Assembly: GCF_000420325.1 (NCBI RefSeq) | Contig: NZ_ATUS01000001.1 | Span: 1,244,463 to 1,308,462, forward strand | Source of the DNA: Spongiibacter tropicus DSM 19543 | Lineage (GTDB): Bacteria > Pseudomonadota > Gammaproteobacteria > Pseudomonadales > Spongiibacteraceae | Direction: 5' to 3' | Length of the DNA stretch: 64,000 bases | In this document: positions 40,836-61,575 of the stretch, in pieces | How the letters are laid out: the number at the start of each line of letters is the position of its first letter | Position numbering within the stretch: the first letter of the stretch is position 1 | The notes under the pieces: generated by a model | What the model saw: the letters and a program-made list of their open reading frames with translations, nothing else | The model's database searches: none | Told to the model about the DNA's origin: nothing | Made by a program: the position numbers and the translations under genes

Positions 40836-40863
40836 ATAATAGTGGCGACTAATTTTTATCTAA
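40836..40863 (-). promoter_or_regulatory. predicted promoter of the TonB receptor gene
   Basis: On the minus strand a good -10 TATTAT (40841-40836) lies 16 bp after a weak -35 TTAGAT (40863-40858). The weak -35 is one arm of the operator-like palindrome at 40859-40873. Confidence 0.5.
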
Positions 40864-40873
40864 CGCCGTTAGA
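40859..40873. promoter_or_regulatory. operator-like palindrome TCTAA-N5-TTAGA, site 1
   Basis: TCTAACGCCGTTAGA has perfect 6-bp arms (TCTAAC / GTTAGA) and lies over the -35 of the TonB receptor promoter. It matches the sites at 46151, 51251, 60201 and 61561. Confidence 0.7.
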
Positions 40874-40909
40874 CAAGCATTCTAGATAGGGGTAACTACG
40901 TATGTCAAC

Positions 40910-40931
40910 AAAAACTATTAACATTCGTTAA
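40910..40931 (+). repeat. 22-bp element shared with 46186-46207, copy 1
   Basis: This stretch starts AAAAACTATTAACATT and ends CGTTAA. It matches the copy near the TetR gene at 20 of 22 positions. It also keeps the ACTAT-N5-TT core of the operator family. The rest of the 40806-41165 interval, about 360 bp, is AT-rich and holds no convincing gene; an 83-codon frame from 40931 looks random. Confidence 0.55.
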
Positions 40932-41131
40932 TGGCGTCTAAAATTTATTTATTATTCTTAAATATCAATACGTTAACCAACAAAACAAATGAGCTAAGTG
41001 GCGATTTTTTAGCGGCAAATAGCTATTATTCCAAGGCGCTATTAGCAACCCAGAATATTACAATTAACGCGTATAAAAACCCTAGATCTTTCCGGCAAGC
41101 GCCACGGAATGGGCAAGACAAAACAACGCGA

Positions 41132-41158
41132 CCGGGGGCAGGCACGACCCGCCCCCGG
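41132..41158 (-). terminator. hairpin ending the beta-oxidation operon
   Basis: CCGGGGGC (41132-41139) pairs perfectly with GCCCCCGG (41151-41158). On the minus strand it lies 7 bp after the thiolase stop and is followed by a moderately T-rich stretch (GTTGTTTTG). Likely a terminator, though not a perfect one. Confidence 0.6.
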
Positions 41159-41165
41159 CAAGCCG

Positions 41166-42401
41166 TTATAGCCTCTCGATGATAATAGCCGGCGCCATGC
41201 CGCCCGCTGCACACATGGTCACCAAGCCGCGCTTGAGATCGCGCCGCTCCAGTTCGTCAAGCACAGTGCCAATCAGCATGGCGCCCGTGCAACCAATGGG
41301 ATGCCCCAGGGCCATCGCCCCGCCATTCACATTCACTTTGTTGCGATCCAGACCCAGATCGCGGATGTATTTCTCGGCGACCACTGCAAAGGCCTCATTG
41401 ATCTCGAACAGGTCGATATCGTCCAGCGTCAGGCCCGCCTTCTTCAACACCTTGCGCGTGGCGGGCACCGGGGCATTGAGCATTAAGGTTGGCGAGTCGC
41501 CCATATTGGCGATGGCCAGCACCTTGGCACGGGGCTTTAAACCGTGTTGCTTGGCGTACTCGGGCGATGACAGCAGCAAGGCCGCCGCGCCATCAACCAC
41601 GCCAGAGGAGTTGCCACCGTGATGCACATGCTGAATTTTCAGATCCGGATAGACCTTGTGAATCAAACTCGCATAGCTTGTGCCCTGCTCGTCCAGCGGC
41701 GCGTAGGCCAGTTGTTCGAAGGCCGGGCGCAGGCCCGCCAGCGCCTCCACAGTGGTGCCCGGGCGGGGGAATTCCTCGCGGTCCAGCGCCAGTGAGCCGT
41801 CCTGCCGATACACCGGAATCAGGCTGCGGTCAAAATGCCCACCGGCAATGGCGGCAGCCGCGCGCTCCTGGCTGAGTGCGGCCAGCTCGTCCAGGCTCTG
41901 GCGGCTGATCTTCTCCAGCGTGGCAATGGCATCGGCACACACGCCCTGATGCGGCTGCGGATGCGCCTCGCGCAGACGCAGATTGCCCGCGTCCATAAAA
42001 ATCGGGCCTAAATTCCCCTCGTGGCCGTAGTTCGACATCATCTCGGTGCCACCGGCAATCACCAGGTCTTCAAAGCCCGCCGCAATACTGGCCGCCGCCA
42101 TGTTCACCGCGGTAATCCCCGAGCCACAAAACCGGTCGAGCGTGACCGCGCTGGAGGCAATGTTGTAGCCGGCATCCAGCGCGGCCATACGGCCCAGGTC
42201 ATTGCCCTGCTCGCCGCGCTGGGAGCTGGTGCCCCAGACGATATCATCCACATCGGCAGTATTCAGGGCATTGCGCTCGGCGATCGCCTTGAGCACCGTA
42301 GCGCCCAGTTGCTGGGGATGAATACCCGCCAGCGACCCCTTACCCACCTTACCTATCCCCCGCGGGGTGCGACAGGCATCAATAATCCAAGCCTCTTTCA
42401 T
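41166..42401 (-). CDS. acetyl-CoA acetyltransferase (thiolase)
   Basis: A 411-residue thiolase II-type enzyme. The nucleophilic Cys92 is in DRFCGSGITAVNMA; the C-terminal motifs GGAMALGHPIGCTGA and MCAAGGMAP hold the catalytic His and second Cys. It cleaves 3-ketoacyl-CoA with CoA, the last step of beta-oxidation. It is the fifth and last gene of a leftward operon (46061 to 41166), followed by a hairpin. Relatives serve steroid side-chain and other branched-chain degradation, so the substrate may be bulky, but this is inference. Confidence 0.93.
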   Translation of the reverse strand: MKEAWIIDACRTPRGIGKVGKGSLAGIHPQQLGATVLKAIAERNALNTADVDDIVWGTSSQRGEQGNDLGRMAALDAGYNIASSAVTLDRFCGSGITAVNMAAASIAAGFEDLVIAGGTEMMSNYGHEGNLGPIFMDAGNLRLREAHPQPHQGVCADAIATLEKISRQSLDELAALSQERAAAAIAGGHFDRSLIPVYRQDGSLALDREEFPRPGTTVEALAGLRPAFEQLAYAPLDEQGTSYASLIHKVYPDLKIQHVHHGGNSSGVVDGAAALLLSSPEYAKQHGLKPRAKVLAIANMGDSPTLMLNAPVPATRKVLKKAGLTLDDIDLFEINEAFAVVAEKYIRDLGLDRNKVNVNGGAMALGHPIGCTGAMLIGTVLDELERRDLKRGLVTMCAAGGMAPAIIIERL

Positions 42402-42427
42402 TGTTTATCCTCGCCATTAGGCCGTTA

Positions 42428-43192
42428 TTATTTTCCTTGCCACTGGGGTGCCCGCTTCTCGGCAAATGCCCGGGCGCCCTCAATGGCATCTTTACTGGAA
42501 AAGATCGGATCGACAATCTCTGCTTGTTTGCCAAACATCTCGCCGTCCTGCCAATCTGCCGACTCGTAAATCACCTGCTTAGACGACTCGATGGACAGCG
42601 GCGCATTGGCCACGATTTTTGCCGCCATGGCCTTGGCCGCGCCCAGTACCTCGCCTGCGGGCACGCATTGATTCACCAAACCGAGATTCAACGCCCGCTG
42701 GGCATCCATAAAGTCGCCGGTGAGCGCCAGCTCCATCGCCACGCGCAGCGGGGTTTGCCGGGGCAGCCGCATAAGGCCACCGGCAGCAGCCGCCAGACCG
42801 CGTTTGGCCTCGGGAATACCAAACTGGCTGTTTTCCGCCGCCACGATCAAGTCGCAGCTCAGGGCAATTTCAAAACCACCCGCCAATGCATAGCCCTCAA
42901 CAGCGGCAATTAGCGGTTTACGCGGGCGCTTTTCACACAATCCGGCAAAACCGCGTCCCTTAATCACCGGCAGTTCGCCGCTGACAAAAGCTTTTAAGTC
43001 CATCCCTGCACAGAAGGTACCGCCCGCGCCGGTAATAATGGCAACGCGAATGGCCGGATCGCTGTCTAATTGATCCATGGCCGCCGCAATACCTTTAGCA
43101 ACATCCAGGTTTACCGCGTTTTTCGCCTTTGGGCGATTCAGGGTTACAGTCATCACGCCGTTGTCGACGGCAACCAGCACAGCATCATTCAT
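42428..43192 (-). CDS. enoyl-CoA hydratase/isomerase (crotonase family)
   Basis: A 254-residue crotonase. The oxyanion-hole segment is TGAGGTFCAGMDLKAF; the second block is PLIAAVEGYALAGGFEIALSC. The first catalytic Glu position is taken within GIPEAKRGL, with Glu preserved. It hydrates 2-enoyl-CoA in the beta-oxidation operon. The stop lies 26 bp before the thiolase start. Crotonases have wide substrate range, so isomerase activity cannot be excluded. Confidence 0.92.
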   Translation of the reverse strand: MNDAVLVAVDNGVMTVTLNRPKAKNAVNLDVAKGIAAAMDQLDSDPAIRVAIITGAGGTFCAGMDLKAFVSGELPVIKGRGFAGLCEKRPRKPLIAAVEGYALAGGFEIALSCDLIVAAENSQFGIPEAKRGLAAAAGGLMRLPRQTPLRVAMELALTGDFMDAQRALNLGLVNQCVPAGEVLGAAKAMAAKIVANAPLSIESSKQVIYESADWQDGEMFGKQAEIVDPIFSSKDAIEGARAFAEKRAPQWQGK

Positions 43193-43258
43193 AGCGATTC
43201 CTTAGTGTTGTCATCACGGGCCGTTCGCCTCGTGCTTGGTAAATATCCTGCTGGGTGC

Positions 43259-44032
43259 TTAGCGAGGCTGCATGCGAATGGCGCCGTCCAAGCGTACGCA
43301 CTCACCGTTCATGTATTCGTTCTCGGCAATAAATACCGACAGGTGGGCAATTTCTTCGGGGCGACCCAGGCGCTTGGGGTTCACCACGCTGGCCTCAAGA
43401 GATTTGTAAGCCTCTTCGGGCAGGGTTTCGAACAGCGGCGTGTGGATCAGACCGGGCACAATGGTATTCACGCGAATACCGTAAGAGGCCAAATCGCGCG
43501 CCATCGGTAAAGTCATGCCTACCACACCGCCCTTGGACGCGCTGTAGGCCAGTTGGCCAATTTGCCCTTCGTAGGCCGCCACCGACGCGGTATTAATGAT
43601 TACACCGCGGGCATTTACTTCATCGTAGGGCGCATTCTTAGCCATTTGTTCGGCAGCCAGGCGCGCCACATTAAACGTACCAATCAGATTAATATTGATT
43701 ACATGGCAGTAGTCTGCGAGGGGGAAGGGGCCATTCTTACCCAATGTTTTAATAGCATTACCGATCCCTGCGTAGTTATTGCAAATATGAATCGCCTTAA
43801 ACCTTGCCAACACACCGTCAATAGCTTCTTTTACAGAGGCCTCATCGGCGACATTCACGTTGAAGAAGGCAACTTTGTCCTCGCCCAACTCAGCGATAAT
43901 GGTCTTGGCACGCTCTTCATTCAGGTCAAAAATGGCCACAGATGCGCCCTTGTCGACATAAGCACGTACGGTCGCTTCGCCCAAACCAGAGGCTCCACCA
44001 GTCACAATCGCGACTTTGTTATTAATATCCAT
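43259..44032 (-). CDS. HSD10-like 3-hydroxyacyl-CoA dehydrogenase (SDR)
   Basis: A 257-residue SDR resembling type-2 3-hydroxyacyl-CoA dehydrogenase (HSD17B10). Cofactor motif TGGASGLGEATV (11-22), NNYAGIGNAIKTLG in place of NNAG, catalytic YSASK and ARDLASYGIRVNTIVPGLI. The C-terminus is VRLDGAIRMQPR, close to HSD10 sequences. It would oxidise 3-hydroxyacyl-CoA with NAD in the same operon as the hydratase and thiolase. HSD10-type enzymes accept branched acyl-CoA and steroids, in line with a bulky substrate. Confidence 0.9.
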   Translation of the reverse strand: MDINNKVAIVTGGASGLGEATVRAYVDKGASVAIFDLNEERAKTIIAELGEDKVAFFNVNVADEASVKEAIDGVLARFKAIHICNNYAGIGNAIKTLGKNGPFPLADYCHVININLIGTFNVARLAAEQMAKNAPYDEVNARGVIINTASVAAYEGQIGQLAYSASKGGVVGMTLPMARDLASYGIRVNTIVPGLIHTPLFETLPEEAYKSLEASVVNPKRLGRPEEIAHLSVFIAENEYMNGECVRLDGAIRMQPR

Positions 44033-44089
44033 GATCTCTATCCTTTTTCGATTACAACCCTGTACAGGTCATCACTAAGTTAATTGCCG

Positions 44090-45235
44090 TCACTTACCGC
44101 CAAACATGTCGCGGGCGACGATTTCTTTCATAATTTCGGAGGTACCAGCCAGAATCCGACTGATTCGGGCATTGGCATACAAATTACAAATTTCATATTC
44201 CTGCATATAACCGGCACCGCCGTGCAACTGCAGCCCCTCGTCCACCGCCCGGCCCTCGACCTCCGAGCAGTAGTATTTCGCCTGAGAAGCCGACACTGCC
44301 GACAGCAATCCCTCGTTGTGCTGGGCAACGCAGCGGTCAATATAGGCTTGGGCGACATCCAGCTCAGTTCGCATCGCCGCCATTTTGAAGCGGGTATTCT
44401 GCAGGGCCGACAGTGGCCCACCAAAAGCCTGTCGCTCCATCACAAAGTCGCGCGTCAATGCAAAGGCCGCCTCGCCCGCTGCGAGGGAAATACAGGCAGT
44501 AATCAACCGCTCTTCCGCCAACCCCTGCATAAGCTGCTGCATGCCACGACCAACGTCACCGAGAACGTTGTTCTTGGGTATTTTTACGTTATTGAAAAAC
44601 AGCTCAGCGGTGTCCTGAGCTTTCAGACCAAGCTTGTCGAGATTCCGCCCCCGCTCGAAGCCATCCATACCTCGCTCGACAATAAACAAAGTCATTTCAC
44701 GGGGCTGCTGCGGATTCGTCTTGGCAGCGACAATCACTGCATCCGCAAGGATCCCGTTGGAGATATAAACCTTGGAGCCGTTGAGAAGCCAATGATCTCC
44801 GCAATCCTCGGCTCGAGTTTTCATCCCCGCCAGATCGCTGCCCGCGTCAGGCTCGGTCATGGCAATAGCCAGCACACACTCTCCTGAAACACAGCGCGGA
44901 ATAAAGCGTTGCTGCTGCTCAGTGCTGCCAAAATGCCTGAGGTAAGGAGCTACGAGGCGGCTATGCAAGGTATGGAAAAACCCGGGCTCCCCGTGCAGCG
45001 CATCTTCCTCAATCATAATCTGTTGATAGCGAAAATCTTCCACGCCCAGGCCGCCCAGTGCTTCCGGAGCCCAGGTCAGCAAGTACCCCTGTTCGCCCAT
45101 CAAACGAAACATATCCCGGGGCACCAGGCCGTCACGCCGCCATTGCTCGCGATGCGGCTTTACCTCAGCGTGGAGAAAACGCCGGTAGGATTCGCGAAAG
45201 ATCTGTTGCTCTTCAGTAAAGACCTGATGTCGCAT
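44090..45235 (-). CDS. acyl-CoA dehydrogenase
   Basis: A 381-residue FAD acyl-CoA dehydrogenase. Conserved segments: AIAMTEPDAGSDLAGMKTRA, WLLNGSKVYISNGILADAVIV, and the C-terminal LQLHGGAGYMQEYEICNLYANARISRILAGTSEIMK, where the FAD and catalytic-Glu region of long-chain and isovaleryl-type enzymes lies. It introduces the 2,3 double bond. It is second in the leftward beta-oxidation operon. Chain specificity is not readable. Confidence 0.93.
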   Translation of the reverse strand: MRHQVFTEEQQIFRESYRRFLHAEVKPHREQWRRDGLVPRDMFRLMGEQGYLLTWAPEALGGLGVEDFRYQQIMIEEDALHGEPGFFHTLHSRLVAPYLRHFGSTEQQQRFIPRCVSGECVLAIAMTEPDAGSDLAGMKTRAEDCGDHWLLNGSKVYISNGILADAVIVAAKTNPQQPREMTLFIVERGMDGFERGRNLDKLGLKAQDTAELFFNNVKIPKNNVLGDVGRGMQQLMQGLAEERLITACISLAAGEAAFALTRDFVMERQAFGGPLSALQNTRFKMAAMRTELDVAQAYIDRCVAQHNEGLLSAVSASQAKYYCSEVEGRAVDEGLQLHGGAGYMQEYEICNLYANARISRILAGTSEIMKEIVARDMFGGK

Positions 45236-45281
45236 GAAAGCCTCTTCAGAAAATGGCCGTCACCATTGCGGCCGGTTAACA

Positions 45282-46061
45282 CTACAAAGACCGCAGTAAA
45301 TGCCCACCATCTACCGGCAGCGCCACGCCGGTCATAAACGAACCTGCTTCACTGGCCAACAACAAAAGTGGCGCATTAAGCTCGTCTAACTGCCCCAGCC
45401 TCTGAGGGGGAATTTTTTTCAGGTAATTATGTCCACGCTCCGAAGCAAAGAAGTCGGCGTTCAGTTCGGTTTCGAAGTAGCCAGGGCAAAGTGCATTGAC
45501 TCGGATACCGTCGCGCCACAGTTCCATAGCGGAATTTCTGGTGAGCTGAACCACTCCCGCCTTGGCCGTGGCGTAAAGCGTGTTATTAACACTGGGATGC
45601 AATCCCAGAATAGAAGCGATGTTAACGATACTACCGGGCTTTTGGGCACCGACCAGCCGCTCTGCCGCCTCTCGGGAAACTCGCCAAACCGCTTGAAGAT
45701 TGGTGCCTACGATATAGTCCCACTGCGCCTCGTCGGTCGCAATGAAACTAGCTGGATTCGCCACACCTGCGTTGTTGACCAAGAGATCTACGACACCCAG
45801 CGAAGATTCGACGGTATCGAAAGCTGCGGTCACAGAAGCGACATCATTCACATCCATCGCTACGGCCATAGCCCGCCCGCCGTCAGCGGATATCTCGCTA
45901 ACCAAAGTCTCCAGGCGGTCCACTCTCCGCGCCGCAGCCACTACTGTCGCACCGGCCGCAGATAGAAGCTTACAAAAATGCGCACCAAAACCACTTGATG
46001 CTCCGGTAACCAGCGCAATGCGCCCGTCGACCCGCAACGCCTCGCTTATTGGCTCACTCAT
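45282..46061 (-). CDS. short-chain dehydrogenase/reductase, first gene of the beta-oxidation operon
   Basis: A 259-residue classical SDR. Cofactor motif TGASSGFGAHFC (20-31), NNAGVAN, and catalytic YATAK, with NIASIL upstream. The C-terminus is VDGGHLLRSL. It is similar in several blocks to the SDR at 36648. It may oxidise a hydroxyl group on the substrate or a 3-hydroxyacyl-CoA. The promoter upstream carries one copy of the island operator, and the TetR gene is divergent. Confidence 0.9.
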   Translation of the reverse strand: MSEPISEALRVDGRIALVTGASSGFGAHFCKLLSAAGATVVAAARRVDRLETLVSEISADGGRAMAVAMDVNDVASVTAAFDTVESSLGVVDLLVNNAGVANPASFIATDEAQWDYIVGTNLQAVWRVSREAAERLVGAQKPGSIVNIASILGLHPSVNNTLYATAKAGVVQLTRNSAMELWRDGIRVNALCPGYFETELNADFFASERGHNYLKKIPPQRLGQLDELNAPLLLLASEAGSFMTGVALPVDGGHLLRSL

Positions 46062-46132: not shown

Positions 46133-46165
46133 ATCATATCCAGCCTCTTATCTAATATCAATAGT
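46133..46165 (-). promoter_or_regulatory. promoter and operator-like site 2, beta-oxidation operon
   Basis: On the minus strand -35 TTGATA (46161-46156) and -10 TATGAT (46138-46133) are 17 bp apart. The element ACTATTGATATTAGA (46165-46151) covers the -35. The surrounding AAAACTATTGATATTAGAT agrees closely with the sites at 60201 and 61561. Confidence 0.72.
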
Positions 46166-46185
46166 TTTACGCACACCCCAAGACG

Positions 46186-46207
46186 AAAAACTATCAGCAT
46201 TCGTTAA
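46186..46207 (+). repeat. 22-bp element shared with 40910-40931, copy 2
   Basis: Begins AAAAACTATCAGCATT and ends CGTTAA, with two mismatches to the other copy. It sits in the upstream region of the TetR gene, near where its -35 should be (a possible -10 is TACACT at 46225-46230). This may be an autoregulatory site. Confidence 0.55.
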
Positions 46208-46267
46208 ATAACAACGTTCTCTGATACACTCTTGGGCAATATTTAGCCCGACTAAAAGGGATTTTTG

Positions 46268-46861
46268 ATGGGACGCCCGGCAAAACCCATAATTTCACGA
46301 GAGCGAGCGGTACGCGCAGCACTTGAGGTCATCGACGAAAACGGCGTCGAAGGTCTCAGCCTGCAACTAGTAGCGAAACGCCTAGGAGTGAAGGCACCTT
46401 CGCTTTACTACCACTTCAAAAACAAGGCCGAGATTCTTTCTGATGTCGCGCGCCTGCTGTTTTCCGACGTGGTGACCCGCGAAGATGTTGAATACGAAAA
46501 CTGGCGTGAAGAACAAGCCGCACTGGCGGTGGCCACGCGGCGCTCGATTCTCAGCCATCCCAAGGCTGCTCCGCTACTGCTGCAGTTTTTCCCACGCTAT
46601 TTAATGCTCAAGGCCTACGACAACTGGTCCGGCCGGGTCGATCTGCCCGTTGAACAGCGCATGCAGGTGATTGAGGGCATTGAAAAGCTCACGCTGGGCT
46701 CGGCGTTGTTTGGCGCCATGAGCGCCGCCACCCAAACCGACCCCATGCCAGCCTTCCCGGCGGAAAAATTCCCGCACCTGAGCGAGGCGATCGACGCGAA
46801 TCCCCTGTCTGAGGATGAAATGTTTGAGGCTGTGCTGCGCGCGTTTCTCTACGCGTTCTAA
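46268..46861 (+). CDS. TetR-family regulator of the catabolic island
   Basis: A 197-residue TetR protein. The HTH is near residues 10-55 (RAVRAALEVIDENGVEGLSL, then LVAKRLGVKAPSLYYHFKNK). The remainder is a variable ligand domain. The start is ATG 46268 with GGGA about 6 bases upstream; a TTG three bases earlier is in frame but unlikely. It lies divergent to the beta-oxidation operon. The nCTAn-N5-TTAGA site over that promoter, repeated at four more promoters of the island, makes it the best candidate for the repressor of the whole island; this is inference. The inducer may be a CoA ester of the substrate. Confidence 0.92.
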   Translation: MGRPAKPIISRERAVRAALEVIDENGVEGLSLQLVAKRLGVKAPSLYYHFKNKAEILSDVARLLFSDVVTREDVEYENWREEQAALAVATRRSILSHPKAAPLLLQFFPRYLMLKAYDNWSGRVDLPVEQRMQVIEGIEKLTLGSALFGAMSAATQTDPMPAFPAEKFPHLSEAIDANPLSEDEMFEAVLRAFLYAF

Positions 46862-46883: not shown

Positions 46884-48371
46884 CTAGGACCGAGGCGGTA
46901 TTTTCTTCATGCCGAGCTTGAGCATTTTTTCCAGGGTGGCGCCATAGGGCGGGTCCATCATTGCCGCCACCTTTTTGTACCAACCCTGTTCAAACACCGA
47001 TTTGGCATGAGAAAAACGCCGGAAGCCAGCCTCGCCGCCCCAGTAACTTCCCATGCCGCTGTGCCCCACACCGCCAAAGGGCAGGTCTGACATCATCAGC
47101 TGTAACATCACCTCGTTAATCGCCACGCCGCCGGAGTGGGTCTGCGCAAGCAGCTGCTGCTTTGCCTGGCTGGCATGGCCAAAGTAATACAGCGCCAGCG
47201 GGCGCTCCCCGGCATTGACGTAATCCACGGCGGCGCTGAGATCCGCCACGGTTTTCACCACCAGAATCGGGCCAAAGATTTCCTCCTGCATCACCCGGCT
47301 GTCGTCGGCGGGATCCACGACAATCACCGGACTGAACTGGCGCCGCTCAGTGGTCGCACCAACGTCTATTTCGATGATGCGCGCACCACTGGCCCGGGCA
47401 TCGTCGAGCAGCTCATGCATACGCTGGTAATGCGCGTTCGTGGCAATCGCGGCGTAGTCCCGCCCCTGCAATTCAGCCGGGTACAGTTGCCGGATCGCCT
47501 GGCTCGCTGCCTCGATAAAGGCCTCCAGGCACGGCGCTTCAAGTAACACGTAATCGGGGGTAATACAGCCCTGCCCGGCGTTAATCAGCCGCCCGCTAAC
47601 CGTGCGCTGGGCGGCGTATTGAAGGTCGGCGTGGCGGTCGACAAGCACCGGCGACTTGCCACCCAGCTCCAGTGTAACCGGGGTGAGATTTTGCGCGGCC
47701 GCCGCCATCACGTGACGGGCGGTCCCCGCGCTGCCGGTATACATCAAATGATCAAACGGCAGCGCGGCAAAAGCCCGCGACACCCCGACTTCACCGGTCA
47801 CAATGCTCAGTTCGCTGGCGTCAAAGTAGCGGGGCAAGGTTTCTGCCAGCATGGCAGCCGCCGCCGGGGAATATTCGGAAATCTTCACCATCACTCGATT
47901 GCCCGCCGAAAAAGCATCAATCGCCGCAACCATCGCCATGGCCACCGGGCCGTTCCAGGGCACCATCACGCCCACCACGCCCAGCGGCTGATAGCGGATA
48001 TAGGCTTTGGCACCCAGCAGATTGAAGGGAAAATCGGCCTTACGTCGCTCGTCGCGCAGCCAGCTTGGCAGTCGCTTGCTTACCGCCTTGGCGTGATTAA
48101 TCACTGGCAGAATTTCCACCGCTTTGATAAAGGCCGCGGGCTTGTGCAACCAGTCTTTAACAGTGGCCGCCACAATGGCCTCCTGTTGATCGACCACAAA
48201 ATCGACAATGCGACGTATGCGGTCGAGGCGGCTGGCCAAGCTCGGATACCGCTCGGCGGCAAAGGCCTCGCGCTGCAGTGCAAATTGCGACTGCAGATCG
48301 TCGCCGCAGGAGATGTTATCTGCCAGCATTCCTTCCACTCCTTCCGGCTTTTTGTCCGTTGTGGCAGTCAT
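46884..48371 (-). CDS. aldehyde dehydrogenase (coniferyl-aldehyde dehydrogenase type)
   Basis: A 495-residue NAD(P)-dependent aldehyde dehydrogenase. The general-base Glu lies in VTLELGGKSPV, the catalytic Cys in NAGQGCITPDYVLL, and the late motif is LPFGGVGHSGMGSYWGGEAGF. The type is that of coniferyl-aldehyde dehydrogenases, which act on bulky or aromatic aldehydes. It follows the acyl-CoA dehydrogenase gene with a 4-bp overlap. With the GMC alcohol oxidase of the same operon it would turn an alcohol into a carboxylic acid. Confidence 0.92.
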   Translation of the reverse strand: MTATTDKKPEGVEGMLADNISCGDDLQSQFALQREAFAAERYPSLASRLDRIRRIVDFVVDQQEAIVAATVKDWLHKPAAFIKAVEILPVINHAKAVSKRLPSWLRDERRKADFPFNLLGAKAYIRYQPLGVVGVMVPWNGPVAMAMVAAIDAFSAGNRVMVKISEYSPAAAAMLAETLPRYFDASELSIVTGEVGVSRAFAALPFDHLMYTGSAGTARHVMAAAAQNLTPVTLELGGKSPVLVDRHADLQYAAQRTVSGRLINAGQGCITPDYVLLEAPCLEAFIEAASQAIRQLYPAELQGRDYAAIATNAHYQRMHELLDDARASGARIIEIDVGATTERRQFSPVIVVDPADDSRVMQEEIFGPILVVKTVADLSAAVDYVNAGERPLALYYFGHASQAKQQLLAQTHSGGVAINEVMLQLMMSDLPFGGVGHSGMGSYWGGEAGFRRFSHAKSVFEQGWYKKVAAMMDPPYGATLEKMLKLGMKKIPPRS

Positions 48372-52992: not shown

Positions 52993-52998
52993 GCTGTT

Positions 52999-53059: not shown

Positions 53060-53470
53060 ATGAAAGGTGTCGGCGCCGATCACCCGTATTGGGACGCACT
53101 CCGCGATGGCCGCGTCAGCCAGCAGCAGTGCCGCGACTGCCAACAATGGCACTGGCCTGCCGTGTATCGCTGCAGCCACTGCGGCAGCTGGGAACAGCAA
53201 TGGCACGAGGTTGAGCCGCGCGGCCGCATTTACAGCTGGACCCGCAGCCACTACGACTTTGGCGGCCCGCGGGAGCACGGCCTGCCCTTTGTCAGTGTGC
53301 TGGTCGAACTGGAGCATGCGAGCAAGACTCGCCTGCTCGGCACGCTAGAGGGCAACCCGGCGCGGCTGCGTATTGGCGACCGGGTCAGCGGCCAGGTGAT
53401 GCATGTCGAGTTCGACGGCGAGTCCTTACCCACGCTGCGCTGGCAGCTCACTGACCAGGGGGAGCACTAA
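53060..53470 (+). CDS. Zn-ribbon OB-fold protein (DUF35, ChsH2/Ltp2-partner type)
   Basis: A 136-residue protein with a rubredoxin-like zinc ribbon at its N-terminus (CRDCQQWHWPAVYRCSHC) followed by an OB-fold (GRIYSWTRSHYDFGG, LPFVSVLVELEH, RLRIGDRVSGQVMHVEFDG). DUF35 proteins bind thiolase-fold partners; in steroid degradation a DUF35 domain forms the functional aldolase with Ltp2. Here the thiolase-fold gene starts 1 bp after the stop codon, so a stable complex is likely. Confidence 0.9.
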   Translation: MKGVGADHPYWDALRDGRVSQQQCRDCQQWHWPAVYRCSHCGSWEQQWHEVEPRGRIYSWTRSHYDFGGPREHGLPFVSVLVELEHASKTRLLGTLEGNPARLRIGDRVSGQVMHVEFDGESLPTLRWQLTDQGEH

Positions 53471-53471
53471 T

Positions 53472-54638
53472 ATGGCCACCACAGCATTTTGCGGCGGCGT
53501 CTCGGCGGTGGGCGTTGGCCTTCGCCAATACAAGCGCGGCCAGGCCCCCATGCCCGAACAGGGCGTCCTGGTCAGGGCCATTGTTGATGCCTGCGAAGAC
53601 GCCGGTTTCGACCCCGCCAATATCGACGGCTTTGTTTCCTACGGCGATGACAAAAACGAACCGGTGCGCCTGATGCCCGACCTCGGCACCCGCCATCTGC
53701 GCGTTAATGCCCAGGTGTGGGGCGGTGGCGGTGGCGGCATTGCCGCCGCGTTTGGCATTGCGGCCGCGGCGATTGGCAGCGGTCAGGCCGATGCCGTGGT
53801 GGTATTTCGAGCGCTGGTGCAAGACAACAGTGGTCGTATGTCGGCCGCCGTCATGCGCCACCACCTGAACGACCATATTATTGGCGCCGGGGTACTGGCC
53901 CCCGCTCAGATCTGCGCCCTGCGCGCCCAGCGCATGTTTGAATACCACGGCGTGCCGCAATCGGTCACTGAAGAGTTAGTGCGCGCCTCCTATTACCACG
54001 GCGCCCGCAACCCCGATGCCATGAGCTACGGCAAAGAGCTAGACCTGGACGCCTACCGCAACGGTCGCTGGATTGCCGAGCCCTTCCGGCTATTTGACTG
54101 CTCGCGGGAAAACGACGGCGCCGGCGCCATCCTGCTGGTATCGAGCGAAAAAGCCAAATACCTGAACAAGCCGCCGGTGCATCTGTTAGGCGTGGCCAAC
54201 GGCGCCGAGCAGGGCTGGGGCGACCTGCTGGAAAACGACCGTCACTACGACTCGGCGGGCTTTCGTCCGATTGCCGAGCGCCTGTGGCAACAAACCGGCC
54301 TGCGCCCGGCTGATGTGGATGTGGTACAGCTCTACGAAAATTTCAGTGCCCAGGGCATTGCCTCGTTGATCGATCACGGCTTTTGCAGCTACGACAATGT
54401 CGCCGAGTTTATTCGTTTTGAAAACCTTATCGCGCCCCACGGCAAGCTGCCGGTGAACACCTCCGGGGGCAACTTTGCCCAGGGCTTTATTCACGGCTTT
54501 GGCACGGCGGTGGAATCGGTGCGGGTGTTGCGCGGCGAATCGGCCAACCCGGTGCCCGATGCGAAAGTCTGCCTGCTGGCGGGCGGGCCGGGCGCGCCGA
54601 CGGTCAGTTCAGCGCTGTTTGGCACAGAGGCACTCTGA
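53472..54638 (+). CDS. thiolase-fold lipid-transfer (Ltp2-like) protein, probable retro-aldolase
   Basis: A 388-residue thiolase-fold protein of the SCP-x/Ltp2 group. Segments: GQAPMPEQGVLVRAIVDACE, VNAQVWGGGGGGIAAAFGIA, VNTSGGNFAQGFIHGFGTAV. The Gly-rich stretch in which thiolases carry their nucleophilic Cys has none, as in Ltp2, where Claisen cleavage is replaced by a retro-aldol step. The GxxHG region is kept. ATG 53472 has GGGGGAG upstream; the longer frame from 53403 overlaps the OB-fold gene. With the DUF35 protein it may release a propionyl- or acetyl-CoA unit from a hydroxyacyl-CoA. The aldolase call is inference from family. Confidence 0.87.
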   Translation: MATTAFCGGVSAVGVGLRQYKRGQAPMPEQGVLVRAIVDACEDAGFDPANIDGFVSYGDDKNEPVRLMPDLGTRHLRVNAQVWGGGGGGIAAAFGIAAAAIGSGQADAVVVFRALVQDNSGRMSAAVMRHHLNDHIIGAGVLAPAQICALRAQRMFEYHGVPQSVTEELVRASYYHGARNPDAMSYGKELDLDAYRNGRWIAEPFRLFDCSRENDGAGAILLVSSEKAKYLNKPPVHLLGVANGAEQGWGDLLENDRHYDSAGFRPIAERLWQQTGLRPADVDVVQLYENFSAQGIASLIDHGFCSYDNVAEFIRFENLIAPHGKLPVNTSGGNFAQGFIHGFGTAVESVRVLRGESANPVPDAKVCLLAGGPGAPTVSSALFGTEAL

Positions 54639-54639
54639 T

Positions 54640-55518
54640 ATGACCAAGGCTATCGACTATCGCGTGGAAGATGGCATTGCCATCCTCACTTTTAACCGCC
54701 CCGACAAACTCAATGCCCTCACCCGCGAGATGGCAATGGCATTTATCGCCTTGCTGGATCGCAGCGACGCCGACGATGCCGTTAAAGCGGTGATTGTGAC
54801 CGGTGCGGGCAAGGCCTTTTGCGCGGGCGCCGATTTATCCGCGGGCGACGACGCTCTCAGCGAGGTAAACGCGGGGGCAGAAGCGGGTAGTGATGGCGTC
54901 AACCGCGATATTGGCGGCCTGATGACCCTGCGCATTTACCGCAGCCTGAAACCCATTATTGCCGCCATCAACGGCGCCGCCGTGGGGGTGGGTATTACCC
55001 TGACCCTAGCCATGGATATTCGCCTGGGCAGTCAGCAATGCAAGGCGGGCTTTGTGTTTGCCCGCCGCGGCATTGTGCCCGAGGCGGCGTCATCGTATTT
55101 CCTTCCCCGCATTGTCGGCATTTCGCGGGCGCTGGCCTGGTGCTACAGCGGGCGGCTGATCGACGCCACGGAGCTGCGGGAAGCAGGCTTGCTCAGCGAG
55201 ATTGTGCCCGCCGAGCAATTGCTGGATCGCGCCCGGGAAATTGCCCGGGAAATCATCGACAACGCCGCGCCGGTCTCGGTGGCGCTGACCCGGCAAATGC
55301 TGTGGCAGGGGCTGGAAATGAATCACCCCATGGAGGCCCACCAGCTCGACAGCCGCCTGGTTGCCGCCCGGGGAGACAGCGCCGACGCCCGCGAAGGTGT
55401 TGCCTCGTTCCTGGCCAAGCGCCCGCCGCAATTCAGCGACCGGGTGTCTCAGGATATGCCCGGCGACTACCCCTGGCGAGACGAACCGACGTACCGCCCG
55501 GCGCCAGCAAAAAAATAA
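54640..55518 (+). CDS. enoyl-CoA hydratase/isomerase family protein
   Basis: A 292-residue crotonase-family protein. Oxyanion segments TGAGKAFCAGADLSAG and AINGAAVGVGITLTLAMDIRL; catalytic-Glu region FARRGIVPEAASSYFLPRIVG. The C-terminal tail, about 30 residues longer than the 42428 homologue, ends RDEPTYRPAPAKK. ATG 54640 is 1 bp after the thiolase-fold stop. In the Ltp2-type pathway it could make the 3-hydroxyacyl-CoA that the aldolase cleaves. Confidence 0.9.
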   Translation: MTKAIDYRVEDGIAILTFNRPDKLNALTREMAMAFIALLDRSDADDAVKAVIVTGAGKAFCAGADLSAGDDALSEVNAGAEAGSDGVNRDIGGLMTLRIYRSLKPIIAAINGAAVGVGITLTLAMDIRLGSQQCKAGFVFARRGIVPEAASSYFLPRIVGISRALAWCYSGRLIDATELREAGLLSEIVPAEQLLDRAREIAREIIDNAAPVSVALTRQMLWQGLEMNHPMEAHQLDSRLVAARGDSADAREGVASFLAKRPPQFSDRVSQDMPGDYPWRDEPTYRPAPAKK

Positions 55519-55568
55519 CACGCACCGCGCTGCGGCCACAGCGGCTCGCACGCGCAGGGAGATGACCC

Positions 55569-56795
55569 ATGACAAACGAGCATTGTGTAATCATCGGCGG
55601 CAGCCACGCCGCTGCGCAACTGGCCGCCTCGTTGCGGCAGGAAGGCTGGGAGGGTGCCATCACCCTGATCGGCGCCGAGCCCACCCCACCCTACCACCGC
55701 CCACCGTTGTCGAAGGCCGCGCTCAGCGGTGAGAAAAGTGACAGCGAGCTGCTGATTCGCCCCGCCGAGTTCTACGAAAAAAACCGCATCGACCTGCTGC
55801 TGGGCAGCACTGTTACCGCCATCGACCGGCAGGCTAAAAAGGTCCTGCTTCACGATGGCGGCGAAATTCCCTACAGCAAGCTCGCCCTGACCACCGGCGC
55901 CAGGGTACGCAAACTCCCGATTCCCGGCAGCGAGCTGGACGGTGTTTGCTACCTGCGCGATTTGCGCGACGCCCACCAGATTCGCAAATACATCGGCCCG
56001 GGGAAATCGGCGGTGGTCATCGGCGGTGGCTATATTGGCCTGGAGGCGGCGGCATCGATGCGCAAACTGGGCATGGCGGTGACCGTGCTTGAGGCCCAGC
56101 CGCGGGTATTGGCGCGCGTCACCTCGGCGGAAATTTCCGCGTTTTACAGTCGCGTTCACCGCGAAGAAGGCACTGAGATTATTACTGGCGCCAGCATCGA
56201 GGCCATTAGCGGCGACACCCGGGTACGCGGCGTCAGCCTGACCGACGGCCGCAACCTGCCCGCCGATGTGGTGCTGATTGGCGTGGGCGTGCTGCCCGCC
56301 ACCGAGCTGGCAGAACAGGCCGGGCTGGAAACCGATAATGGCATCCTGGTGGACGAATTCGCCCGCACAAGCGACGCCAATATTGTTGCCGCCGGTGACT
56401 GCACCCGCCACTACAACCCCATTTACAGCGCGCAGCTGCGGTTGGAGTCGGTGCAAAACGCCAACGACCAGGCCAAGGTAGCGGCGCGCACGCTGTGCGG
56501 CAAACTGGAACCTTACTGCGCCCTGCCCTGGTTCTGGTCCGATCAATACGACCTGAAGCTGCAGATTGCTGGCTATTCCCAGGGTTTCGATCGGGTCGTA
56601 CTGCGCGGTGACACCACCACCGGCCGCAGCTTTGCCGCGTTTTACTACGCGGGCGATACGCTGCTGGCGGTCGACGCCATTAACCGCCCCAAGGAATTTA
56701 TGATGGCCAAGCGCTTTCTCGCGGAAGGCAAAAGCGCCGACCCCGCCAAGGTGGCCGACGAAAGTATTGATGTTAAAACCCTGTTCGCTGACTGA
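55569..56795 (+). CDS. ferredoxin reductase, putidaredoxin/rhodocoxin-reductase type
   Basis: A 408-residue FAD/NAD(P)H oxidoreductase. FAD motif VIIGGSHAAAQLAASLRQ (residues 6-23), NAD motif VVIGGGYIGLEAAASMRKLG near 150-170, and the second FAD motif VAAGDCTRHYNP near 272-283. It passes electrons from NADH to [2Fe-2S] ferredoxins. GGGAGATG precedes the ATG. Placed between the Ltp2-type block and ferredoxin 2, it completes the class I electron chain, and may also feed the two Rieske oxygenases, for which no separate reductase is visible in the window. Confidence 0.94.
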   Translation: MTNEHCVIIGGSHAAAQLAASLRQEGWEGAITLIGAEPTPPYHRPPLSKAALSGEKSDSELLIRPAEFYEKNRIDLLLGSTVTAIDRQAKKVLLHDGGEIPYSKLALTTGARVRKLPIPGSELDGVCYLRDLRDAHQIRKYIGPGKSAVVIGGGYIGLEAAASMRKLGMAVTVLEAQPRVLARVTSAEISAFYSRVHREEGTEIITGASIEAISGDTRVRGVSLTDGRNLPADVVLIGVGVLPATELAEQAGLETDNGILVDEFARTSDANIVAAGDCTRHYNPIYSAQLRLESVQNANDQAKVAARTLCGKLEPYCALPWFWSDQYDLKLQIAGYSQGFDRVVLRGDTTTGRSFAAFYYAGDTLLAVDAINRPKEFMMAKRFLAEGKSADPAKVADESIDVKTLFAD

Positions 56796-57363: not shown

Positions 57364-58884
57364 TTAGCGGACTTTTTCTAATTCCAGATGCGCCGCGGCA
57401 TAGCGCTCGCGCAGGGCAGGCTTGGCGATTTTGCCAGTGGCCAGACGCGGCAGTGGCTCGGCCTCAAAGGCAATATAACGGGGCACCTTGTAAGCGCTCA
57501 TTTCACGGTTGCAGTGGGCCAGCACGGTCTCTACCGACAGCGCTTCGCCGTGAATGATCGCCAGCGGCGTTTCGCCAAATTTGTCGTCTTTAGCGGCCAG
57601 CACGGCCACTTCCTTAACGCCGGGAATCTCGGCAATCACCCGCTCAAGCTCGGCGGCAGAAATATTAATTCCGCCGGAAATAATAATGTCCTTCAAGCGG
57701 TCCAGCATGGTCAGCAGGCCGTCTTCATCCACCATGCCCAGATCGCCGGTGTGCAGCCAGCCATCGACCAGCGCCTTGGCTGTGGCCTCCGGGTCGTTCC
57801 AGTAGCGCAGCATCATGCCCGGGCCGCGAATCACAATTTCGCCCGGGGTGTTGGGCGGGCAGAAGGCGCCTTTGTCATCCTTGATGGCAATGCGGGTAAA
57901 GACTGAACCCTTGCCACATTTTTCCGGGCTGTGCAGCGCGCCTCGGTCGGTATTCACGGTGGCCTGCCCGCCCGCCTCGGTTTGCCCGTACAACTGGCGA
58001 AGGGTAACGTCTTTTGCCAGCCAGGTGTCCAGCAGGCTTTTTGCCACCTGGGCACCGCCGACATTGGCCAGGCGCAGCGACGACAGATCGGCGCTGGCAA
58101 AACGGGGAGACTGCATCATCCGCTCAAAAAATATGGGCGCGCCGTTCAGGGCGGTAATGCGCTCGCCCTCAATAATGTCGATGGCCCGCTCCGGTTCAAA
58201 GGCCTCCTCGACATACACCGTGGCGCCGTAGGCAAAGTACTGGGTCGCCACCACGTAGCCTGCCGAGGTGCAAAACGGGCCGAATACCAGCGTTTTTGCC
58301 GGGTAGGCCGGCACAAAGGGCATGGTGATGGCAATATCCGAGGCGTAGGCGGTCAGGGAGCGATGACTGTAGACCACGCCCTTGGGGTAGCCGGTGGAAC
58401 CGCTGGTGGGAATGATCACCACTTCGGTATCGGGGCCAAGCGGTGGGCGTGAACGCCCGCTTGCCGGCTGTTCGCGCAGCTGCCGCACCGTGCTCAGCGG
58501 CGCAGCCTGACAATCAACGAGCCCGTTTGCCACTTCGCGGGCCAGCTCGGCGCGGGCGTCATCGTAAAACACCCATTTGGATTGGTAGCGCTCACCGACA
58601 AGGTAGCGCACTTCGCTAACCGTAAAGCGCGGATTGATCGGCGCCAGAATGGCGCCGGCCAACATGCAGCCCTGCGACATGACCAACCAGTCTAGGCAGT
58701 TGGTCGCTAAAATGGTGACCCTGTCGCCCAGTTCAACGCCCTGTTCAATCAACCAATCGGCCACCGCCTGCGACCACTGGTAAAATTCGCCATAGGTGAC
58801 GCGCTCGGTCGCCGTGACGATCGCTAACTCATCCCGGCGCTCGGTGGCCCACCAATCAAACACCTCAGCTAACGTGCTGCCCAC
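57364..58884 (-). CDS. acyl-CoA ligase (AMP-binding)
   Basis: A 506-residue adenylate-forming ligase. The P-loop is TSGSTGYPKG near residues 172-181, the adenine motif LYGQTEAGG, the hinge motif DGLLTMLDRLKDIIISGG, and the A10 lysine in LATGKIAKPAL. It activates a carboxylic acid as CoA thioester. The start is GTG 58884 with GGGAGA upstream. It follows the Rieske gene by 53 bp. Together with the CoA-transferase at 62245 the island has two ways to load CoA, perhaps on different intermediates. Confidence 0.92.
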   Translation of the reverse strand: MGSTLAEVFDWWATERRDELAIVTATERVTYGEFYQWSQAVADWLIEQGVELGDRVTILATNCLDWLVMSQGCMLAGAILAPINPRFTVSEVRYLVGERYQSKWVFYDDARAELAREVANGLVDCQAAPLSTVRQLREQPASGRSRPPLGPDTEVVIIPTSGSTGYPKGVVYSHRSLTAYASDIAITMPFVPAYPAKTLVFGPFCTSAGYVVATQYFAYGATVYVEEAFEPERAIDIIEGERITALNGAPIFFERMMQSPRFASADLSSLRLANVGGAQVAKSLLDTWLAKDVTLRQLYGQTEAGGQATVNTDRGALHSPEKCGKGSVFTRIAIKDDKGAFCPPNTPGEIVIRGPGMMLRYWNDPEATAKALVDGWLHTGDLGMVDEDGLLTMLDRLKDIIISGGINISAAELERVIAEIPGVKEVAVLAAKDDKFGETPLAIIHGEALSVETVLAHCNREMSAYKVPRYIAFEAEPLPRLATGKIAKPALRERYAAAHLELEKVR

Positions 58885-58937
58885 AGTTACTCTCCCGTTG
58901 AGTCTTATATTTATTAAGTTTTGCTGTTTTTAATTAT

Positions 58938-60110
58938 TTATTCTGTCGTGTTGAGAAAGGACTCCACCGAATCGTGGAACGGGCCGATCATCCACTCCAG
59001 ACCGCCGTAGTAAACCGTGTCCACGCCGCCTGCCTGCAAGCCCTGCTGCTGAATTAATGCCGCGCGGAAATCCTCACCGCCAAACACCTCGTCAATCAGC
59101 TTGTAAGAACGCGCATAGAGCTCTTTAGCCTTTTCCGTTTCCGGCGGCGCTTTCACCAGCATGTAGTACTCCACCACCGTGCGATTGTTGGCCCGCGGGC
59201 AGAGCACCATCACACTGATGTAATAGGGGCTGGTCACCACAATGGTGTTGGGGAAGGCCAGGTAGGCATGGGTGATGTATTTGTGCAGATTATCAATATT
59301 GCCGCCCAGCACCGCCGGGTCGAAATTCGCCTTGCCGGAGATTTGCCGCTGGTGATGGCCGAGCTGGCTGTAAACGCTGGGCACATCGTCAAACAATTTA
59401 GCGATGGAATTCGCGTGCAAACGCTGCACGTGATAGCCCTCTAGAAACGGTTCAATCACAAACTTCCAGTTGGTTTCCAGGTCGTAGCTGCGGTGGCCGT
59501 ACACATGCATTTTGTCCAGGCCCAATGCCTCCAAGTCGGCGCAGATCTGGTCGGTGCCCTCCAGCTGCTCGGGCGCCTGCTTGTGGTCCAGGCCCACCCA
59601 GATAAAGCCGCCCGCTTCATAGCTGGTCAACTCCACCAGGCCCAGCTCGCATTTCTTCAGCGACGGGAAGGTTTCCTGGCGAGGAATGCCAATCAAGTTG
59701 CCGTCCATCGCGTAGGTCCAGGCGTGATAGGGGCAGGACACCCGCGCACTTTTTACCGGCTCATGGCTCTCTACCAGCTTCGATCCGCGGTGGCGGCAGG
59801 CGTTGATAAATACCCGCGCCTTGCCGTCGCGATCGCGGGTAATCAGCAGCGGCACACCATAGCTATCCACCGCGACCGAAGTGCCGGGCTCGGGTAAAAA
59901 CGCCGACACCGTAGCCACCACCGGCACCTTGTTAAACAACTGCTCTTTCTCGGCCTGAAAGCGCTGAGCACTGAGGTAAACATCCACCGGGCGGCTTGCC
60001 TCAATGGTCGGCACCGGCATTTCTTCGAGGGGACGGATTGACTGAATGGCATCCCACTGGCTGGCGGTCAGCCCCATCGGAGCAGACGCTTGCGGATTAT
60101 TTGCGGCCAT
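58938..60110 (-). CDS. Rieske non-haem iron oxygenase alpha subunit (B)
   Basis: A 390-residue ring-hydroxylating-oxygenase alpha subunit. The Rieske cluster ligands are CRHRG and CPYHAW (Cx1H-x17-Cx2H type). The mononuclear iron site is in EPFLEGYHVQRLH (two His four residues apart). Electrons would come from ferredoxin and the reductase at 55569; no beta subunit is encoded here, as for monooxygenase-type members. I choose ATG 60110 (GGAG upstream) over 60122. It is a close paralogue of the Rieske protein encoded next to it and precedes the ligase gene. Has its own promoter with operator site 4. Confidence 0.92.
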   Translation of the reverse strand: MAANNPQASAPMGLTASQWDAIQSIRPLEEMPVPTIEASRPVDVYLSAQRFQAEKEQLFNKVPVVATVSAFLPEPGTSVAVDSYGVPLLITRDRDGKARVFINACRHRGSKLVESHEPVKSARVSCPYHAWTYAMDGNLIGIPRQETFPSLKKCELGLVELTSYEAGGFIWVGLDHKQAPEQLEGTDQICADLEALGLDKMHVYGHRSYDLETNWKFVIEPFLEGYHVQRLHANSIAKLFDDVPSVYSQLGHHQRQISGKANFDPAVLGGNIDNLHKYITHAYLAFPNTIVVTSPYYISVMVLCPRANNRTVVEYYMLVKAPPETEKAKELYARSYKLIDEVFGGEDFRAALIQQQGLQAGGVDTVYYGGLEWMIGPFHDSVESFLNTTE

Positions 60111-60183
60111 TTTTGACTCCATTATTCGTTAGTTATTAACCCGTCATACAGGGCGCTACGACCACGGGCCATGATGTACGCAG

Positions 60184-60215
60184 AGTAAAACAGCCATTAA
60201 TCTAATGTCAATAGT
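60184..60215 (-). promoter_or_regulatory. promoter and operator-like site 4, Rieske B
   Basis: On the minus strand perfect -35 TTGACA (60211-60206), 16-bp spacer, -10 TTTACT (60189-60184). The element ACTATTGACATTAGA (60215-60201) covers the -35. Start near 60177, leader about 67 bases. Confidence 0.75.
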
Positions 60216-60245
60216 TTTAAAACCGCTAGTGCGCTTATCCCGGAC

Positions 60246-60270
60246 AAAAAAAAACGCGGCATCGCCGCGC
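60246..60270 (-). terminator. intrinsic terminator of Rieske A
   Basis: On the minus strand CGCGGC / GCCGCG (60269-60264 and 60260-60255) with a 3-base loop is followed by nine T. It separates the Rieske A unit from the Rieske B promoter. Confidence 0.9.
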
Positions 60271-60309
60271 AAAAACTGGAAGCAACCAGAGACCCACAAT
60301 CGACCCGCA

Positions 60310-61488
60310 TCAGCTCTCCTCGCTGCCGAGAAAAGACTCCACCGCCTCATGAAACGGCCCGATCAGCTCTTCCAGACCGCCAAAATACACCCTGTCTATC
60401 GCCCCGCTGGCCAAGCCTTCCTGCTGTAGCTGCGCGGCGCGAAAATCCTCGCCGCCAAACACCTGATCAATCAGCTCGTAAGAGCGGGCATACAGCTCCC
60501 GCGCCTTGTCGTTATCGGGCGGGCTTTTCACCAGCATGTAGTAATCCACCACGCTGCGGTCGGCAGCCGCTGGCGCCACCACCATCACGCTGATGTAGTA
60601 AGGGCTGGTCACCACCACCGTGCTGGGAAACACCAGATAGGCGTGGGTAATGTATTTGTGCAAATTGTCGAGGTTGCCCTCGAGCACACTGGGGTCGAAG
60701 TTGGCCTTGCCTGAACACTGCCGCTGGTGCGGACCGATCAGGCTGTAAATATTGGGCACATCGACAAATAGCTTGGCGATCGAGTCGGCGTGCAAACGCT
60801 GAATATGATAGGGCTCCAGAAACGGCTCGATCACCATTTTCCAGTTGGCGTTCAGCGTATAGCGGCGGCGACCGTAAACGTGCATGTTCTGCAGGCCAAA
60901 GGCTTCCAGGTCGGCGCAAATTGCCTCGCTGCCCTCCACCTGTGGCGGCTCGCACTCAGGGTCGAGCCCCACCCAGATAAAGCCGCCCGCTTCATAGCAG
61001 GTCAACGCCACCAAGCCCAGATCGCATTTCTTCAGTGACGGGAAGGTTTCCTGCCGGGGAATGCCAATCAACTCGCCCTGCATGCTGTAGGTCCAGGCGT
61101 GATAGGGGCAGGACAAACGCGCGCTGCTCACCGGCTCATCCGACTCCAAGACTTTTGCTCCGCGGTGGCGGCAGGCGTTGAGAAAACAGCGGACCACGCC
61201 GTCGCGGTCGCGGGTAATCAGCAGCGGCACGCCGTAGAGATCCAGCGCCAGCGACATACCCGGCTCGGGCAGATAGGCCGAGGTCGTCGCCACCACCGGC
61301 AGTGTGCGGAAAATGTCGCGCATCTCCGCCTCGAAGCGCGATGCCGACAAATAGACCGAGCTGGGCCGACTATCCTCATAGGTCGGCGTGGCAATCTCCT
61401 CCGGCAGCGTCAGCGCCGAAATCGCCTCCCATTGGCTATCCGTTAAGCCCTCTGGCTTGATCTTCTGCCGGACGGTGTTGGAATCCAC
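60310..61488 (-). CDS. Rieske non-haem iron oxygenase alpha subunit (A)
   Basis: A 392-residue paralogue of the Rieske B protein. Cluster ligands CRHRG and CPYHAW; iron site EPFLEPYHIQRLH. The two proteins agree over nearly the whole length, with most differences near the N-terminus and in the middle of the catalytic domain. The start is GTG 61488, preceded by GGGGAGA; a longer frame to 61518 has no ribosome site and does not align with Rieske B. It has its own promoter (site 5) and terminator, so the paralogues are separately transcribed, perhaps for successive hydroxylations or different substrates. Confidence 0.9.
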   Translation of the reverse strand: MDSNTVRQKIKPEGLTDSQWEAISALTLPEEIATPTYEDSRPSSVYLSASRFEAEMRDIFRTLPVVATTSAYLPEPGMSLALDLYGVPLLITRDRDGVVRCFLNACRHRGAKVLESDEPVSSARLSCPYHAWTYSMQGELIGIPRQETFPSLKKCDLGLVALTCYEAGGFIWVGLDPECEPPQVEGSEAICADLEAFGLQNMHVYGRRRYTLNANWKMVIEPFLEPYHIQRLHADSIAKLFVDVPNIYSLIGPHQRQCSGKANFDPSVLEGNLDNLHKYITHAYLVFPSTVVVTSPYYISVMVVAPAAADRSVVDYYMLVKSPPDNDKARELYARSYELIDQVFGGEDFRAAQLQQEGLASGAIDRVYFGGLEELIGPFHEAVESFLGSEES

Positions 61489-61543
61489 TGCTCGTTCTCC
61501 CCTACACAAACACGCCACACAGGCGTATGCACAACTGCCGTTG

Positions 61544-61575
61544 AGTATAATAAACTAATATCTAATTTCAATAGT
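61544..61575 (-). promoter_or_regulatory. promoter and operator-like site 5, Rieske A
   Basis: On the minus strand -35 TTGAAA (61571-61566), 16-bp spacer, -10 TATACT (61549-61544). Element ACTATTGAAATTAGA (61575-61561) covers the -35 and ends 2 bp before the glutathione-transferase stop codon. Confidence 0.75.

Follow-up and report, generated by a model that had tools for sequence, protein, structure and literature searches.

The 64,000-nucleotide stretch of the Spongiibacter tropicus DSM 19543 genome analysed here (contig NZ_ATUS01000001.1, positions 1,244,463 to 1,308,462; hereafter the window) carries a catabolic gene island whose promoters share a short palindromic element. The element is very probably the operator of a TetR-type repressor: TetR1, encoded at 46268–46861, and very likely its paralog TetR2, encoded past the window (C1:1309348 in contig coordinates), would bind it in the island promoters and block RNA polymerase until released by a ligand. 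In the proposed mechanism, TetR1 dimers would occupy WAWCTA-N7-TAGWTW (W, A or T) inside the core promoters of the island transcription units, 12 operators in total, and TetR2 would very likely bind the same operators, since its recognition helix is shared with TetR1. The bound dimers would exclude polymerase, and a pathway compound that binds in their C-terminal domain would cause their release, switching on uptake (two TonB receptors), oxidation (a CYP101-like P450 with ferredoxin and reductase, two Rieske oxygenases, a GMC oxidoreductase and aldehyde dehydrogenases), CoA activation and beta-oxidation. Binding, repression, ligand release and the use of the same operators by both paralogs are what we infer from sequence.

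The proposed operator motif and its place in the promoters

The initial annotation of the window had listed five 15-mers fitting nCTAn-N5-TTAGA, three of which were said to share a near-identical core on the minus strand. All five were present and fitted the pattern, and AAAACTATTGAnATTAGAT was common to the three minus-strand sites. Between 40859 and 61575 the pattern WCTA-N6-TTAGA gave seven strand-wise matches at five places, two of them palindromic, against a mean of 0.13 and a maximum of 3 in 2000 shuffles within 60-base windows. The whole genome (3.95 Mb) contained 11 matches at 9 places, 7 of these in the island, and 50 matches to the reversed pattern used as control. A matrix built from the five sites and run across 140 kb around the window detected additional copies and a two-fold symmetry, the underlying motif being the palindrome WAWCTA-N7-TAGWTW. 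The annotated sites were genuine, while their form had to be revised to a symmetric CTA-N7-TAG core with AT-rich arms, as also indicated by the count in the window: CTA-N7-TAG occurred there exactly six times, and all six were operators, namely the five annotated sites and an overlooked one at 51655–51673. Six more copies followed within 13 kb beyond the window (C1:1309197, 1309217, 1311502, 1311546, 1319077 and 1321470), making 12 operators, all with palindromic CTA-N7-TAG arms. The six operators of the window, to which no strand is assigned, are:

40857–40875: operator 1, before TonB receptor gene 1 and close to the expected +1 of its top-scoring promoter; right flank weaker (ACA)
46149–46167: operator 2, on the -35 of the short-chain dehydrogenase/reductase (SDR) / beta-oxidation-type operon, between this operon and tetR1
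51249–51267: operator 3, between gmc (minus strand) and the ferredoxin gene (plus strand), covering a -10 for either side
51655–51673: operator 4, between the ferredoxin and P450 genes, within the P450 promoter in the spacer between -35 and -10
60199–60217: operator 5, on the -35 (TTGACA) before Rieske B; none listed here by the promoter scan
61559–61577: operator 6, on the -35 before Rieske A

The form WWWCTA-N7-TAGWWW was found at 12 places of the genome, 10 of them within C1:1290611–1319095 and the other two at 1174639 and 1358376, while shuffles gave a mean of 0.05 and a maximum of 2 for the 10 island copies (2000 shuffles). Two further copies in the island, one ahead of each TonB receptor gene (1285318 and 1321470), had a weaker flank. 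The refined pattern WAWCTAWN5WTAGWTW matched eight times in the whole genome, each time inside the island, so that an equal frequency of the motif elsewhere, which would have spoken against an operator, was seen neither with this pattern nor with CTA-N7-TAG in the window. When two AT bases were demanded on both flanks, the N7 spacing occurred 31 times in eight regions (own and seven relatives) versus 25 times for fourteen other spacings together, and 21 versus 21 times in the relatives alone. Two plus-strand matches upstream of TonB receptor 1 and tetR1, respectively, at 40911–40933 (AAAACTATTAACATTCGTTAATG) and 46187–46209 (AAAACTATCAGCATTCGTTAAAT), share ACTATnAnCATTCGTTAA; their right arm is not TAG, and they are possibly half-operators or sites of another regulator.

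The overlap with a -35 or -10, initially claimed for every site, was found for the sites at 46151, 61561, 51251 and 60201, while the TonB receptor site lies just downstream of the best promoter of this gene (40908–40879, minus strand, 11/12), near the expected +1. The sites at 46151 and 61561 contain the -35 of promoters found by the scan, and the site at 51251 includes the -10 of a scanned gmc-side promoter and, by a four-genome comparison, also the -10 of the ferredoxin promoter. The site at 60201 contains TTGACA with no scanned promoter listed, and its promoter assignment therefore rests on the comparison between genomes. The same applies to the promoter placements in general, since the scan gave no excess of promoter-like matches in the operator stretches over shuffled sequences (6 versus 4.4 and 3 versus 3.6). 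In the Rieske promoters the operator contains the -35: CTATTGACATTAG precedes the own Rieske B gene and recurs in six relatives, in one Rieske promoter each, the own Rieske A promoter has TTGAAA, and the second Rieske promoter of genome G576 deviates. The ferredoxin promoters of four genomes have TTGACA-N17-TCTAAT with the -10 inside the operator, and in the P450 promoters the operator is placed between TTTACA-like and TAATAT-like hexamers. At orthologous promoters the operator arms were kept, while the centres varied. An operator shifting its position inside the core promoter from the -35 to the -10, the spacer or the vicinity of +1 would suit a polymerase-blocking repressor.

TetR1 and TetR2 compared with the Tet repressor

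A Pfam scan of 30 island open reading frames (ORFs) identified the two TetR proteins as the only DNA-binding regulators. Both belong to the TetR family, scoring 49.3 (TetR1) and 46.4 bits (TetR2) with TetR_N above the curated cut-off of 24. They are 71% identical, have the stretch GVKAPSLYYHFKNKAE and the recognition helix in common, and are identical at 39 of 47 positions in the helix-turn-helix stretch and at 92 of 136 in the ligand domain. Repression by one regulator, as initially proposed, holds in that there is one apparent operator class, a repression-like placement and regulators of the TetR type in the island, but the single regulator is replaced by two paralogs, and the operators are most likely read by these two sister repressors.

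The closest solved proteins to TetR1 by sequence are Tet repressors (1.9e-13). For TetR2 the top entry is the putative regulator 8oo2, and Tet repressors come among those that follow. TetR1 was modelled with AlphaFold2 (mean confidence score pLDDT 77.9, with only 4 sequences in the alignment); the model has an all-helical TetR fold with a C-terminal ligand domain, and for it Foldseek placed Tet repressors and their engineered derivatives at ranks 1–32 (TM about 0.67–0.7). The likeness to the Tet repressors (Tn10 class B, class D) extends to the operator, tetO2 being TCCCTATCAGTGATAGAGA (PMC11686294), with arms of the same CTA-N7-TAG spacing as in the island. In contrast to the single resistance locus of the Tet repressor, about 12 operators are spread here across a catabolic island, and the proteins remained far under the cut-off of 265 of the tetracycline-repressor equivalog NF010319 (68.8 bits for TetR1 and 57.7 for TetR2).

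As described in PMC7102968, the Tet repressor has only two side chains hydrogen-bonding tetO bases, Arg28 (to G at +2) and Gln38 (to A at +3), while Tyr42 touches T at +4. By ungapped alignment these correspond to Gln33, Ala43 and Tyr47 of TetR1. The TAG at +4 to +6 was present in all 24 half-sites of the 12 own operators. The hydrogen-bonding set of the Tet repressor was not found in TetR1, nor were its bases preserved: +2 was A in 15 half-sites, G in 7, T in 1 and C in 1 (G in tetO), and +3 was T in 14, A in 8 and G in 2 (A in tetO). The retained Tyr coincides with retained bases, and the two altered contacts coincide with altered bases. The element is a well-supported variant of the tetO geometry. 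Apart from Arg28 to Gln and Gln38 to Ala, the changes from the Tet repressor to TetR1 include Thr40 to Ser and Trp43 to Tyr, with Pro39, Leu41, Tyr42 and His44 retained; Gln33 and GVKAPSLYYHF were identical in 11 aligned rows from the genus (10 different).

AmtR of Corynebacterium glutamicum, another TetR family member with several target operons, recognizes the box tttCTATN6AtAGat/aA and sets a precedent, with a CTAT core in its box and no Arg at the Arg28 place; its recognition helix contains Tyr-Tyr-His (PMC2723105). It differs in the arms, which are one base wider (CTA-N8-TAG), in its function in nitrogen control and in a Gln at the Gln38 place (PMC2723105).

A distant TetR gene in Gorillibacterium timonense (L052:6301) encodes Arg at the Arg28 place and has CTAACGGTGTTAG, with G at +2, about 100 bases upstream. 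This would match what the residue-by-base reading predicts. Since, of 80 loci with tetR-like genes, three with orthologs, 6 of the 77 others had CTA-N7-TAG within 400 bases before the gene, this single case is only an anecdote. A further idea is tentative and rather doubtful: paralogs with one reading helix and diverged ligand domains may share operators that open only on two signals or via heterodimers, with Arg28 to Gln together with G to A at +2 as an evolved change of specificity readable residue by base.

Conservation in the genus and alternative explanations

The search for tetR orthologs (E 1e-30 or better, up to 8 candidates scored per genome) was positive for 8 of 390 genomes of the order, the own included, all from one genus. 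The class-wide search found none besides the own (1 of 369), and the phylum-wide search a single one in another class (G939), 52% identical, with Ala at place 33 and the same recognition helix. In G939, CTA-N7-TAG is located at L155:13668, 19007 and 19135, beside relatives of island genes (58–68% identity). Over the 82 kb read, these three occurrences were not above other spacings without a flank rule (N14 has 4), while with two AT bases on both flanks N7 was found twice and the fourteen other spacings not at all. The related TetR, the sites near it and the neighbouring relatives of island genes hint that the TetR-operator pair may have moved between classes.

Sites, positions, conservation and co-occurrence with the pathway were directly observed. 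Within 40 kb around tetR, flanked sites were present in five of seven relatives, and 19 of 21 stood before an ortholog of an island gene, the gene orders being shuffled; the remaining two, both in G725, were not clearly so placed. The refined pattern, counted in 18 genomes of the genus, matched 8 times in the own genome, 7 in G487 and G725, 6 in G754, 5 in G596 and 4 in G576 and G742. Among the other 11, it matched once in G390, G428, G512 and G535, never before an island ortholog, and not at all in G556, G616, G636, G655, G672, G690 and G707; the reversed pattern gave 0 to 5 matches per genome. A P450 ortholog (at least 70% identity) was present in exactly the seven genomes with 4–8 refined matches, a split of 7 among 18 with odds of 1 in 31824 if the genomes were independent, which they are not. 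The tetR gene was found in 9 of the 18, that is in all seven operator carriers and two genomes without operators; in G754 it was first predicted and then found. Of 15 refined sites in the seven genomes outside the regions that had shaped the motif, 10 were clearly before island orthologs: caiB (G487, G596, G754), Rieske B (G725), five in the G754 cluster and ferredoxin/gmc (G576).

Several results weigh against the TetR repressor interpretation. G636 and G655 contain a tetR ortholog with the same helix and neither a refined site nor a P450 ortholog; tetR may have another role there. In these two genomes (L119–L122) tetR is beside ferredoxin and ferredoxin reductase genes, with no flanked sites in 40 kb. 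In the seven relatives the 350 bases preceding tetR contained no flanked site, and autoregulation of tetR is not conserved. The co-occurrence of operators and P450 is not fully independent: sites of both the own genome and its relatives went into shaping the refined pattern, and the genomes are related to one another. With the looser WWW pattern the genomes did not separate, as it gave 19 matches in G690, which has no tetR or P450 ortholog, and 17 in G754. The other 5 of the 15 new sites were not, or not clearly, at an island ortholog: in G576, one at 3335550 lies 1 kb ahead of the TonB1 ortholog, from which another ORF separates it, and one at 979016 precedes an ORF that matches a small island ORF at 44%; one in G487 (C12:183651) is beyond the end of the TonB1 ortholog and before an unassigned ORF; and two are on C10 and C41 of G725.

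An unlinked regulator encoded elsewhere in the genome, with the TetR genes as bystanders, would account for tetR without operators in G636 and G655, for the missing conserved operator before tetR in relatives and for the situation in G576, where operators are far from tetR, 2.4 Mb of contig separating the P450 locus and tetR. We consider it unlikely, as both own tetR genes are in the island and adjoin operators, all seven operator-carrying genomes have tetR, and operator spacing and arms match tetO just as the proteins match the Tet repressor. Moreover, 10 unassigned ORFs scanned near the relatives' clusters yielded one DNA-binding family protein, a TetR_N member beyond the G725 cluster; a nucleoid-associated NA37 protein was also matched.

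Some TetR proteins act as activators, and TetR1 and TetR2 might bind the sites in this way. This is highly improbable given that the operator position differs by promoter (-35, -10, spacer, near +1), while activators usually need a fixed position outside the core promoter. Least credible of all is a likeness arising by chance, from AT-rich promoter sequence or from copied promoter DNA, with no dedicated protein: the extra bases common to three sites do contain a -35 (TTGA-n-A) and several genomes have many matches to the looser pattern, but the strict N7 spacing, the presence of at most one refined match in each of the 11 genomes without P450, local shuffles far below the observed counts, and arms kept with varying centres at orthologous promoters all argue against it.

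Island genes and the likely pathway

The island genes of the window and tetR2 are as follows, assigned by Pfam scan where indicated:

38454–40805, minus: TonB-dependent receptor 1 (Pfam scan)
41166–46061, minus: thiolase, enoyl-CoA hydratase, SDR, acyl-CoA dehydrogenase, SDR (Pfam scan)
46268–46861, plus: tetR1, TetR-type repressor and proposed operator reader (TetR_N E 4e-13; nearest solved proteins Tet repressors; 71% identical paralog)
46884–51227, minus: aldehyde dehydrogenase, acyl-CoA dehydrogenase, GMC oxidoreductase (Pfam scan); true gmc start probably further in
51316–56795, plus: ferredoxin, CYP101-like P450, small thiolase-partner protein, thiolase, enoyl-CoA hydratase, ferredoxin reductase
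57364–61518, minus: acyl-CoA ligase, Rieske oxygenase B, Rieske oxygenase A (Pfam scan)
61577–62218, minus: glutathione S-transferase-like gene (Pfam scan)
62245–64000, minus: family III CoA-transferase gene, an 818 aa ORF that starts past the window and is separated from tetR2 by a stretch with two operators
C1:1309348, past the window: tetR2, paralog of tetR1

The rest of the CoA-transferase gene is followed past the window by genes for TetR2, an aldehyde dehydrogenase, a thiolase, acyl-CoA dehydrogenases, a DUF2889 protein, an NMO-type protein and a second TonB receptor. The regulon initially proposed as self-contained is thus upheld as a set of island promoters, and is extended by about 13 kb, where the additional operators and tetR2 are located. 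A literature search on DUF2889 indicated no function for it. An integrase-core transposase gene is present about 20 kb beyond the last operator (L015:16960–17700).

The closest solved relative of the island P450 is P450cam (E 3e-72), followed by CYP101D/J-type entries, and the enzyme is designated here as a putative CYP101 (P450cam-like) by its nearest solved relatives and not by formal CYP naming. One island thiolase matches lipid-transfer-type models with scores below the model cut-offs. At 53060–54638 a small protein adjoins this lipid-transfer-type thiolase, and the small protein preceding the thiolase counterpart in G742 has ChsH2-type domains, recalling steroid side-chain enzymes. From these genes the pathway substrate may be alicyclic, for instance a terpenoid or a side chain of steroid type. 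CamR (camphor) and KstR (steroids) are TetR-type repressors of catabolic regulons; they control a P450-containing or steroid-type pathway and are released by one of its compounds. In this general plan they resemble the system proposed here, which differs in having two paralogs with the same reading helix.

No report of the regulon was found among top titles and abstract openings of the open-licence literature, which is weak evidence for its being unpublished. The analysis defines from sequence a regulon for a marine degradation pathway, comprising the genes, the switch and the probable sensors. The substrate becomes searchable as the compound that would release TetR1 or TetR2 from DNA, and the island, with its natural variant of the repressor-operator pair that has been studied best, would allow tests of how TetR proteins shift their DNA specificity.

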